Origin: Candidatus Thermoflexus tengchongensis
Lineage (GTDB): Bacteria; Chloroflexota; Anaerolineae; Thermoflexales; Thermoflexaceae
Assembly (NCBI GenBank): GCA_016842085.1
Contig: JAEVEX010000073.1
Coordinates: 1-64,000 of the forward strand
Reading direction: 5' to 3'
DNA: 64,000 bases
The notes under the pieces were generated by a model, which was not told the DNA's origin, made no database searches, and worked only from the letters and a program-made list of their open reading frames with translations. How positions within the stretch are numbered: position 1 is the first letter of the stretch; each line of letters opens with the position of its first letter. Below are positions 43,055 through 55,814 of the stretch, in pieces. A program made the translations under genes and the position numbers.

Positions 43055-43483
43055 TTATCCGCTGGATCCCTCTCGACGGATTCGGCGGCGGCGGGCCACT
43101 TCGAGGCGAACCCGGGAGCGGCGCAGAGCAGCCAGAGCGGCGTTCAGATCGACGCCAGGCGGTCGCTCTTTCAGGACCTGCTCCGCCCGCTGACGGGCTT
43201 CCTCGGCCCGCGCGATATCGATCTCCTCTGCCCGCTCCGCCACATCCGCCAGGACGATCACCTTTTCCGGGGTCACCTCCATGAACCCCCCGTGGATCGC
43301 AAACCAGAGCTCCTCACTGCCCCTCCGGGCCAGCAACGGCCCAACACCCAGAGCGGTCAGCAACGGCGCATGTCCGGGCAGGATCCCCAGTTCCCCTTCT
43401 ACTCCGGGGGCCACCACCATATCCACATCCCCACTGAACAGGGCGCGCTCCTGGGTCACGATCTCCAGGCGCATCGGGCTCAT
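43055..43483 (-). CDS. atpC: F1-ATPase epsilon subunit
   Basis: A 142-residue epsilon subunit of the rotary ATP synthase, part of the central stalk. The N-terminal beta-barrel has MRLEIVTQERALFSGDVDMVVAPGVEGELGILPGHAPLLTAL, followed by IHGGFMEVTPEKVIVLADVAE, and a C-terminal helical hairpin (IDIARAEEARQRAEQVL). The ATG overlaps the stop of an inserted nucleotidyltransferase remnant (ATGA), and its AAGGAGGAG ribosome site lies inside that remnant. It is the last atp gene of the run. Confidence 0.95.
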   Translation of the reverse strand: MSPMRLEIVTQERALFSGDVDMVVAPGVEGELGILPGHAPLLTALGVGPLLARRGSEELWFAIHGGFMEVTPEKVIVLADVAERAEEIDIARAEEARQRAEQVLKERPPGVDLNAALAALRRSRVRLEVARRRRIRREGSSG

Positions 43484-43821
43484 CCCAGGATCTCCTCCTT
43501 CAGATGGATCCAGCGCGGTAACAGCTCTGGAAGCCCCGCCTCTTCCGCCAGGCCCCGGACCGCCGCCTCCAGATATTCCAGGTCCAGATGATCCTGCTGG
43601 GTTTCCAGCACCCCACGCACGTCGTTCTGATCGATCGGCTCCCAGCGGGCCAGCTTGTAAGCGATTAAATCCTCCAGCGTCACGAAGCGCAGCGGGATTC
43701 TGAACAGGACAACCTCCCGTGCGCGGCGGATGGCCTGAACATCCAGCGGTAGGGAAGCGGATCGCAGATCCACCGAAAAGCGCCGGGTGGCGGATCGCTT
43801 TCCGGGTTCATCGCAACTCAC
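43480..43821 (-). CDS. Nucleotidyltransferase-like C-terminal remnant inside the atp operon
   Basis: A 113-residue frame between atpD and atp[51 protein letters not shown] follows the C-terminal part of AbiEii/DUF6036-type nucleotidyltransferases (xxEDLIxxKLxxxRPxDxxDV). The N-terminal half with the catalytic GS...DxD is missing, so it is probably inactive as an enzyme. The GTG overlaps the atpD end by 14 bases and its stop overlaps the atpC start by four, so it is translated if the operon is. Origin is most likely an inserted and then truncated toxin-type gene. Confidence 0.65.
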
Positions 43822-45217
43822 CCCGGCGCAGGCGCTCCGCCTTCTCTACGGCCTCGTCGATGGTGCCGACCATATAGAAGGCCGCCTCGGGCAGATCGTC
43901 GTGCTTGCCCTCCAGGATCTCCTTGAAACCGCGCACCGTTTCCTTCAGGGGGACATAGCGGCCAGGCAGGCCGGTGAATTGCTCAGCGACAAACATCGGC
44001 TGGCTGAAGAACCGCTCAATCTTCCGGGCCCGCGCCACGATCAGCTTGTCCTCTTCCGACAGCTCGTCGATCCCCAGGATAGCGATGATGTCCTGAAGAT
44101 CTTTATAACGTTGGAGCACCCGCTGCACCTCGCGGGCCACCGTGTAATGCTCCTCCCCAACGATCCGCGGGTCCAGGATCCGGCTGGTGGAAGCCAGCGG
44201 ATCCACCGCGGGATAAATCCCCTTCTCGGCGATGCTTCGCTCCAGGGCAATGGTGGCGTCCAGATGAGCGAACGTCGCCACCGGGGCGGGATCCGAGTAA
44301 TCGTCCGCCGGCACATACACCGCCTGCATGGAGGTGATCGCGCCACGCCGCGTGGAGGTGATGCGCTCCTGGAGCTGCCCCATCTCGAAGGCCAGGGTGG
44401 GCTGATATCCGACCGCCGAGGGCATGCGGCCGAGAAGGGCGGAGACCTCCGAGCCGGACATCACGAAACGGAAGATGTTATCGATGAAGATGAGGACATC
44501 CCGCCCCTGATCCCGGAAGTATTCTGCCATCGTGAGGGCGGTCAGCCCTACCCGCAGACGAACCCCGGGGGGCTCATTCATCTGGCCGAAGACCATCACG
44601 GTCTTGTCGATCACCCCCGCTTCGATCATCTCGCGGTAAAGCTGCGTGCCCTCGCGAGTGCGCTCACCGATCCCGGCGAAGACGGAGATCCCCTTGTGGA
44701 CTGTGGCGATGTTCCGGATGAGCTCCATGATGATCACCGTCTTGCCCACCCCCGCGCCGCCGAAGACCGCCACCTTCCCACCCCGCATGAACGGGGCGAT
44801 GAGATCGATCACCTTCAGCCCGGTCTCGAAGACCTCGATCTGGGTGGATTGCTCCTCAAGGGAGGGCGGGGGCTGATGGATCGGCCGATATTCCTGAGCG
44901 CGAACCGGTCCCTTATCATCGATCGGCTCGCCCAGCACATTGAACACCCTGCCGAGGGTGGCCTCTCCAACCGGCACCATGATCGGTGCCCCTGTATCAT
45001 ACGCCACCATGCCCCGGCGGAGCCCATCCGTGGTATCCATCGCGATACAGCGAACCACCCCGCCGGTCAGATGTTGCTGCACCTCCAGCACCAGCCGGTG
45101 GCCATCCCGGGGAACCTCGATGGCGTTATAAATGTCCGGCAACTCCTCCGGTGGGAACTCCACATCCACCACATTACCCAGGATCTGCACAATACGTCCC
45201 ACAGAGCCTTTCGCCAT
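43808..45217 (-). CDS. atpD: F1-ATPase beta subunit
   Basis: A 469-residue catalytic subunit. The P-loop [14 protein letters not shown] is near residue 150, the catalytic Glu region [15 protein letters not shown] near 180, and the Walker B strand [19 protein letters not shown] near 245. [25 protein letters not shown] is the usual segment around 265-290. ATG 45217 follows GGGAGGT; the frame is open upstream to 45403, inside the 91-base atpG-atpD gap and atpG. Intact. Confidence 0.97.
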
Positions 45218-45308
45218 CGCTCTCTTACCTCCCGGAAATGATCTGAGCTGAGGAAGATGCCCCCCAAGCCCCGGGGAAAATGAACGGCGTAACTTCCAGA
45301 AGAACCGG

Positions 45309-53748: not shown

Positions 53749-53767
53749 CTCGGATTCCCTTTCCGGG

Positions 53768-54925
53768 TCACTCCGCGCGATGCCCATCCCCAGCCAGGCG
53801 CACAACCAGCTGGGCGGCCTCCACCAGTGTGGTCGCCGTATGGAGAGCCACCCCCTGAGCTCCCTGGAGGATCGCCCGCCCTTCTTCTTCATTGGTACCC
53901 ACCAGCCGGACGACGACGGGCACACGGGGGCGGACCATCTCAAAGGCGGTGAGCATTCCCCGTGCCACCTCATCGCAACGGGTGATGCCGCCAAAGATGT
54001 TGATCAGCACCGCTTTCACATTGGGGTCGGAAAGAATCAGGCGCATCGCCGCGGCCACCCGCTCTGCGCTCGCCCCGCCTCCGATGTCCAGAAAGTTGGC
54101 CGGACGACCACCGTAGAGCTGGATGATGTCCATCGTGGCCATGGCCAGGCCGGCCCCGTTGACCATACACCCGATGTTCCCATCCAGCTGCACATAGCTG
54201 ATGCCATATTTGCGGGCTTCCCGCTCCGTTGGGGTTTCCTCGTCCTCATCCCGCATGGCCGCCAGATCCGGATGCCGGAACAGCGCGTTGTCATCGATGA
54301 TCACCTTGCCGTCCAGAGCCAGCAACGCGGGCCCGGGCACCACCGCCAGCGGATTGATCTCTGCCAGCGTCGCATCGTTCTCTTCGAAACAGCGATAGAG
54401 GCCCAGGGCGATCTGAGCAAAGGAAGTCCAGAGGGCGCGATCCAGCCCGATCCCCGCTGCCAGAGCCCGGGCCTGGTATTCCCGCAGGCCGAGCTCCGGC
54501 TCGATCAGCACCCGCACGATCTTCTCCGGCGTCTCCCGGGCCACCTCCTCAATGTCCACGCCACCAGCCGCTGAGGCCATGGCCACCACCCGGCGCCGGG
54601 CTCGATCGATGGTCAGGCCCAGATATAGCTCCGCCTGGATCTCTGCTGCCTCATCCACGAGGACCCGGCGCACCGGCAGGCCCTTCAGCGTCATGCTGAG
54701 GATCTGCTCGGCGACCTGCTCCGCCTCCTCCGGGGTGCGGGCCAGGCGGATCCCACCCGCCTTCCCCCGTCCGCCCACAAGGACCTGCGCCTTCACCACC
54801 ACGGGTTTGCCCAGCTCCTTCGCGATGGCGCGGGCTTCCTCCGGGCTGGTCGCTACTTTGCCCCGTGGGATAGGGATCCCATACCGTGCGAAGAGCTGCT
54901 TAGACTGGAACTCGTGGAGCTTCAT
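53768..54925 (-). CDS. sucC: Succinyl-CoA synthetase beta subunit
   Basis: A 385-residue ATP-grasp subunit. The start [20 protein letters not shown] and the motifs [78 protein letters not shown] and [13 protein letters not shown] are typical. The ATG overlaps the stop of the upstream HEPN gene (ATGA) and follows GGAGGGGG. Flanked on both sides by HEPN/MNT pairs. Confidence 0.96.
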
Positions 54926-55431
54926 CGTTCCTCCCCCTCCGTTAAGCTGTGGGCCCCTCGATCCAGGCGACCCAGGAACTCCTGAAAGGCGCGAAGGTCC
55001 CGGGAAACCTCCTCGAAGCAATCCGGAAGGCTCTGCGCCAGCTCCCTCAGACGAGCCCGATCGAACACAAAGGTGTAGACGTTACGAACCACATGGCGAA
55101 ACCGACGGTATTCATCAAGACAGTCCCGCGTGCTTCGCCGGAGCACCGCCGGCCGAATGAATGGGATCTCCACACTCACCTGGCGAAGAAGATCCTCATG
55201 CCAGTGAGGCCCACCCGGCACCGCCTGATCGATTGCCCGAGCGATATCATAGAGGATACGTTCCACGCCAGAATAGAATCCATGCAGGTTGAGGGCGATT
55301 GCATCCCAGAAAGCCTCCTCATCAGAGCGAAGGGCCTGCTCCAGAAAGCGGGTCGTCCGCTCCACGACCCGACGCAGATCCTCGAGCTCTCCCTCGATCC
55401 GGCCGATCAGCAGCTGCACCTCGGGCCTCAC
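54922..55431 (-). CDS. HepT-like HEPN toxin (pair 2)
   Basis: A 169-residue HepT-like protein: [40 protein letters not shown] and the RNase motif region [18 protein letters not shown]. The R-x4-H motif is the HEPN active site. GTG start, overlapping the MNT stop (GTGA). Its own stop overlaps the sucC ATG by four bases, so translation of this toxin and sucC is coupled. Confidence 0.85.
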
Positions 55432-55814
55432 AGATCCACCCCCTCCTCTTCGATCCGGCGAAGCAGACGGGGCGCGTCCTGGATCTCCTCGATGGGAACC
55501 AGGTCCACACGGAAATCGGGGGCCAGCTCTGCCAGTGCTGCCTCCGCTTCGCCCAGGCGCTCGGGCGGGATGCCCTCCACCGCCAGGTCGATATCCGAGC
55601 CCTCCTGGAACCATGGGGTAGGAAGCGATCCGAAGACACGGACCCGGCGGGCACCAAAACGTTCTTTCAGCAGCCGGGCAGCCGCATGGGCCACTGCCCA
55701 GGCCCGCTCCTGACGCTGGGCCCGCCGGGCTTCCTCCTCCGCCCAGCGCCGTCGCCAGGCCTCCCGATAGGCCTCGATCTCCTCTGGGGTGAGATCCGCT
55801 GCGGTTTTCGGCAT
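55428..55814 (-). CDS. MNT-type nucleotidyltransferase antitoxin (pair 2)
   Basis: A 128-residue MNT: an N-terminal charged helix (LTPEEIEAYREAWRRRWAEEE), then VRVFGSLPTPWFQEGSDIDLAVEGI with GS and DxD motifs, and FRVDLVPIEEI. It begins the suc-operon run and overlaps the HepT gene by four bases. Pairs 1 and 2 differ in order (HEPN-MNT versus MNT-HEPN) and in sequence, so they are separate insertions. Confidence 0.87.
   Translation of the reverse strand: MPKTAADLTPEEIEAYREAWRRRWAEEEARRAQRQERAWAVAHAAARLLKERFGARRVRVFGSLPTPWFQEGSDIDLAVEGIPPERLGEAEAALAELAPDFRVDLVPIEEIQDAPRLLRRIEEEGVDL

Follow-up and report, generated by a model that had tools for sequence, protein, structure and literature searches.

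Uma2, HEPN, and nucleotidyltransferase genes as probable long-resident passengers of conserved operons in Thermoflexus

We analyzed a 64,000-nucleotide stretch of the genome of the hot-spring bacterium Candidatus Thermoflexus tengchongensis (Chloroflexota; contig JAEVEX010000073.1, positions 1 to 64,000; here called the window), in which accessory genes of nuclease and nucleotidyltransferase families lie among the genes for the F1-ATPase (atp) and succinyl-CoA synthetase (suc). The studied genome (G000; 3.89 Mb) was compared with relatives of the same genus (G001 to G008; eight species), of which G004 is complete as one 3.3-Mb contig. We verified gene order, overlaps, and protein families in the window from the sequence and by Pfam searches. 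All window genes listed below are on the minus strand.

Accessory genes in the atp and suc gene strings

Two copies of a PD-(D/E)XK-type Uma2 gene, uma2a (46900-47532; PF05685, 5e-34) and uma2b (46264-46896; PF05685, 1e-33), form a cassette between the upstream host gene atpA (47548-49239; F1-ATPase alpha subunit; PF00006/PF00306) and atpG (45309-46259; gamma subunit; PF00231, 1e-92). The gaps along this string are 15, 3, and 4 bp, and both genes match the whole Uma2 domain profile at 117 to 118 bits, against a curated cutoff of 27. A GGGAGG site is held in the last codons of uma2b, ahead of the GTG start of atpG. Farther downstream, atpD (43808-45217; beta subunit; PF00006, 5e-74) overlaps by 14 nucleotides (nt) a nucleotidyltransferase stub (43480-43821), assigned to DUF6036 from an eight-species alignment and Pfam searches with full-length orthologues. 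The stub overlaps atpC (43055-43483; epsilon subunit; PF02823/PF00401) by 4 nt and carries at its 3' end the AAGGAGGAG site for atpC together with an ATGA overlap. The sole strong promoter match of the region is located just upstream of atpA (49337-49310, TTCACA-16-TATAAT). No RNA element was matched by an Rfam search at the junctions.

The uma2 copies share a 3' block of 279 nt (46289-46567 and 46913-47191) with 91% identity, and their second quarters are ~54% identical. Because the similarity of the 3' half is higher within a genome (83 to 89%) than between distant species (~74 to 75%), we suggest that the C-terminal half of the copies may be subject to gene conversion. A repeat search around the inserts detected no terminal inverted repeats; its only hits were the homology between the tandem uma2 copies and some short, weak matches. 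Across the genus, the F1 genes atpA, atpG, atpD, and atpC share a locus with suc and with genes for an ABC ATPase and an M42 peptidase (43055-59271 in the window); Fo genes do not adjoin atpA.

The suc operon is headed by mntH (55428-55814; minimal nucleotidyltransferase [MNT]; PF01909, 1e-7) and hepnH (54922-55431; HepT-like_2 protein; PF20797, 7e-35), a pair located 76 bp after a glycosyltransferase-like gene. Overlaps of 4 nt join mntH to hepnH and hepnH to sucC (53768-54925), which encodes the beta subunit of succinyl-CoA synthetase and was named from gene order and sequence, with orthologues adjoining sucD in relatives and outgroups. Next come hepnI (53365-53748; class II HEPN; PF05168, 1e-31), mntI (53022-53390; MNT; PF18765, 2e-12, and PF01909, 5e-11), and sucD (52052-52930; alpha subunit; named as the orthologous neighbor of sucC in outgroups). 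The spacing along sucC-hepnI-mntI-sucD is ~19 bp, a 26-nt overlap, and 91 bp.

The initial annotation of this DNA had described toxin- or nuclease-type genes embedded without gaps in central-energy operons, and the sequence bears this out at atpA-uma2-uma2-atpG, atpD-stub-atpC, and sucC-HEPN-MNT-sucD. Of the seven genes counted there as lodged inside the operons, the uma2 pair, the stub, and hepnI-mntI fit the description, but mntH and hepnH, at the operon head, interrupt no essential pair. Overlaps or very short gaps characterize most junctions, with the exception of MNT-sucD and atpG-atpD, where the gap is 91 bp each. The proposal that accessory genes supply ribosome sites for the next gene agrees with their 3' ends, in which such sites are seen and are kept after decay.

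Protein families and known systems

Uma2 proteins are predicted solo endonucleases whose genes form cassettes of paralogues, and the function of the family is assigned by prediction only (PMC2701414). The window genes resemble the Uma2 (COG4636, PF05685) cassettes of cyanobacteria and Thermus in family and as solo tandem paralogues without a known antitoxin (PMC2701414, PMC1274311). High copy number is a further likeness (25 matches in 16 units in G000). Unlike those cassettes, some Thermoflexus units are inside atp, nusA-infB, and, in a relative, nusG-rplK.

A motif scan found GSX10DXD in both mntI and mntH (GSLPTPWFQEGSDID in mntH) and RX4HXY in neither hepnH nor hepnI. The adjoining HEPN and MNT genes and the GSX10DXD motif of the window MNTs are reminiscent of HepT/MntA class I, but that class has a HEPN of PF01934 or PF08780 with RX4HXY, whereas the window HEPNs belong to PF05168 and PF20797, not PF01934, and are without the motif (PMC7641770). 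The hepnI-mntI pair corresponds to HEPN/MNT class II (a PF05168 HEPN beside an MNT with GSX10DXD), and whether class II units (PF05168 with PF01909) are true toxin-antitoxin systems is an open question (PMC7641770). Judged by family and motif, neither window HEPN belongs to the class with a demonstrated RNase toxin, and the "toxin" label for them is unproven because neither carries RX4HXY.

A precedent for operon passengers is already published: an MNT-HEPN module lies within the lysine operon of Thermus thermophilus HB8 and is missing in a related strain (Makarova et al. 2009, PMC2701414). It is of the same two-gene type and is likewise inside a biosynthetic operon of a thermophile. In Thermoflexus, by contrast, several operons have passengers, at old sites conserved among species, and some modules split universally paired genes.

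Entry, decay, and selection across the genus

The atpA-atpG junction is fully covered in six genomes (G000, G001, G003, G004, G005, and G008), all of which contain two to three uma2 copies there. The remaining three are incomplete at this site: G002 has fragments of both sides, G007 has a break at a contig end, and G006 yielded no atpG. We measured the spacing between the alpha C-terminal domain and atpG in 54 outgroup genomes of the class; it was 8 to 163 bp in 49 and 757 to 3,260 bp in five. Among these five long inserts, we saw no Uma2, and so no case of convergent Uma2 insertion at atpA-atpG in other families, although the inserts were read without a profile search; by their N termini, three are lipoprotein-like, one is a small gene without identification, and one is unclear. 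In the genome collection, the closest relatives found for uma2b occur only at the same atp locus (including those of Candidatus Thermoflexus japonica, Candidatus T. sinensis, and a third Chloroflexota bin). Since atpA and atpG are adjacent in 49 of the 54 outgroups and the inserts of the remaining five showed no Uma2, the simplest history would be a single entry of Uma2 before the radiation of the genus, followed by vertical inheritance of the site.

G001 and G003 have an intact DUF6036 gene (246 to 247 amino acids) at the atpD-atpC junction, with ATGA overlaps on both sides. DUF6036 was the best Pfam match of these full-length orthologues (5e-10 in a sister species), with DUF2204 and AbiEii as weaker relatives, and the window stub itself gave no Pfam match. 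The G003 orthologue is above the curated PF19502 cutoff (39.9 versus 23.6 bits), and the G001 orthologue is just below it (23.4 bits). The initial annotation had correctly recognized a decayed nucleotidyltransferase here, but its family is DUF6036 and not AbiEii in the strict sense; we rejected AbiEii in favor of the best match of the full-length orthologues. The window copy differs from DUF6036 nucleotidyltransferases in being a truncated stub.

Decay of this gene took several forms. There is a frameshift in G005, an internal deletion in G004, and a deletion with a common junction in G000 and G008 (with an additional deletion in G008); in G002 and G007, only a short stub is left. These changes represent at least four independent inactivations. 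All eight genomes retain the last ~100 nt, which include the overlap with atpC (GGATGAGCCC) and a GGAGGAG-type site, and in each of them the frame reaching the stop at the atpC start is still open. Such retention of the 3' end fits preservation of the next gene's ribosome site. It is no proof that translational coupling is selected, since open frames are common in this GC-rich genome.

A HEPN-MNT pair is located at sucC-sucD in G000, G003, G004, G005, and G006, with a 1-nt gap in the alignment of the G003 HEPN. In G008, the two host genes are separated by ~75 nt of the HEPN start followed by the sucD ribosome site; a longer scar is found in G002, and only ~52 nt remain in G007. Because of the deletion scars in G008 and G002, we reject a recent insertion of HEPN-MNT into sucC-sucD in the studied species. 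The scars in these relatives also show that the passenger can be removed without destroying the sucC-sucD pair. Together with the repeated DUF6036 inactivations, they contradict the earlier suggestion that genes at such junctions cannot be removed.

The intact passengers are under purifying selection, given their low ratios of nonsynonymous to synonymous substitution rates (dN/dS). Median pairwise values across the genus were ~0.19 for uma2a, ~0.17 for uma2b, ~0.04 for hepnI (with dS near saturation), ~0.10 for mntI, ~0.08 for mntH, and ~0.14 for hepnH. For the DUF6036 gene, the value was 0.26 (one pair), and for atpA, included for comparison, it was 0.016.

The same families in other operons

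The pattern extends beyond the window, as the initial annotation had supposed: the same families recur within numerous conserved operons in Thermoflexus. For host genes beyond the window, names were taken from N-terminal sequences, without a profile search. In addition to Uma2, G000 contains 7 matches to PF05168 HEPN, 21 to MNT, 4 to HepT-like_2, and 7 to HepT-like. Its lodged units include nusA-Uma2-Uma2-ylxR-infB, iscS-Uma2-mnmA, and two PF01934-class pairs with short overlaps, pheS-MNT-HepT-pheT and hisA-MNT-HepT-hisF (C13:158439-159211 and C48:14945-15702); a further MNT is beside the operon gene smpB (smpB-MNT). At sdhA-HEPN-MNT-sdhB (C86:40700-41700), a TGA breaks the HEPN gene and the MNT gene overlaps sdhB by 4 nt. 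This break looks like decay of the same kind as that at atpD-atpC.

In G004, rplN and rplX of the S10-spc ribosomal protein operon are separated by an MNT gene (contig 1, L175:3164-3475), with gaps of 30 and 15 bp, and a frameshifted Uma2 gene lies between nusG and rplK (contig 1, ~3.041 Mb). Further G004 units are def-Uma2-trxB, a SIS-domain gene-MNT-HepT-lpd, and an MNT between ccmE-like and ccmF-like genes. An outgroup from another family of the class has MNT-HepT between secY and adk (G052 C53). The 3' ends of lodged units contain the next gene's ribosome site or an ATGA overlap. Many units of these families are also free-standing.

Comparison with other small genes

Genes were called by a simple script of our own, so that individual start sites and a few shadow open reading frames are uncertain. 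In G000, 1 of 16 Uma2 units was within 20 bp of both same-strand neighbors, compared with 12 of 112 other genes of 100 to 260 amino acids (Fisher P = 1). With both neighbors within ~60 bp in G004, the count was 14 of 47 Uma2 and MNT units (hand curated) versus 33 of 118 small genes (80 to 260 amino acids, from 20 systematically sampled G004 stretches; P = 0.85). The genome-wide scan proposed with the initial annotation thus went against its idea of a general insertion strategy: measured by gaps, such genes are no more often lodged in operons than other small genes. Tight placement alone is unremarkable, since 179 (51%) of 350 sampled G004 junctions were co-directional with a gap of ≤100 bp (249 were co-directional at any distance).

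None of 13 VapBC/PIN-domain units in G000 was lodged. These units stand alone, with roughly 70 to 780 bp of upstream sequence, and the difference from the 14 of 47 Uma2 and MNT units has a P value of 0.03, with counts from different species (G000 versus G004).

Origin and maintenance of the lodged genes

The lodged genes are probably vertically inherited, long-resident operon passengers that involve no special insertion strategy. Their anatomy is wider than a single window, and the passengers are of known kinds. Under this interpretation, a Thermoflexus ancestor would have acquired Uma2, HEPN/MNT, and DUF6036 genes without an autoregulated promoter of their own, and these may have settled at junctions inside operons, where their spacing suggests expression on the host transcript. 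The low dN/dS values of most passengers point to some use to the cell or to themselves. Passenger 3' ends, with their Shine-Dalgarno sites and stop-start overlaps, now form the leader of the following host gene and may serve in its translation. A useless unit would then decay through internal deletion or frameshift, as in the deletion pattern described above, and the part beside the next gene would be kept, presumably because its loss would take away that gene's ribosome site. A dedicated insertion mechanism would be unneeded, because half of the junctions are tight and co-directional, and other small genes occupy them about as often. Neither MNT nor HEPN was held to be a likely transcription regulator by Makarova et al. 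(PMC2701414), which would fit expression from host promoters, such as the one predicted before atpA. The contrast with VapBC may likewise reflect that HEPN/MNT and Uma2 units lack a DNA-binding antitoxin.

Some observations weigh against ordinary passengers. The gap criterion misses that several lodged units split highly conserved, universally paired partners (rplN-rplX, pheS-pheT, sdhA-sdhB, sucC-sucD, and nusG-rplK); judged by eye, 0 of 33 tight control genes do so, which hints at more than chance, although this contrast is biased because those sites were found through searches for these families. Additionally, retention at the same site between G000 and G004 was higher for lodged (10 of 11) than for free units (16 of 25), as a trend only (P = 0.13). 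It is conceivable, if rather doubtful, that promoterless nuclease and nucleotidyltransferase genes persist in Thermoflexus at stop-start junctions of universally conserved pairs, with their 3' ends assuming the role of ribosome site for the essential gene that follows, so that full excision is costly and decay leaves a 3' stub. A selected strategy, in which a place among essential genes benefits the passengers through strong transcription and through polar effects that penalize their loss, would also account for the retention trend, for the ribosome sites held in 3' ends, and for the recurrence at atp, suc, sdh, phe, his, nusA, nusG-rplK, rplN-rplX, and ccm junctions. We regard it as unlikely given the lack of any excess by gap criteria, the repeated clean losses at sucC-sucD and atpD-atpC, and the many free-standing units of the same families.

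Purifying selection and the conservation of sites across the genus could instead indicate functional co-option, with the lodged genes regulating or protecting the operon around them, as in a link between growth control and expression of ATP synthase or the tricarboxylic acid cycle. However, the host operons do not share a function (ribosomal proteins, his, phe, and atp), relatives dropped passengers yet kept the operons, and the same families also stand alone, which makes co-option quite improbable. Insertion of the cassettes by a mobile element with a junction-seeking mechanism would accord with the description of MNT-HEPN modules as mobile (PMC2701414), but the search for terminal repeats was negative, no integrase is beside the window units, and the relatives of uma2b were found only at the orthologous locus; we consider this very improbable.

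Implications

If lodging is selected, it would offer a route to fixation for solo nuclease genes and toxin-like modules that have no autoregulated promoter, and it would explain the tolerance of foreign genes in ribosomal protein and ATP synthase operons by some bacteria. Even if the lodged genes are ordinary passengers, the eight-species series provides a clean natural record of decay in which the next translation start is preserved, and it is a warning not to infer shared function from operon membership.

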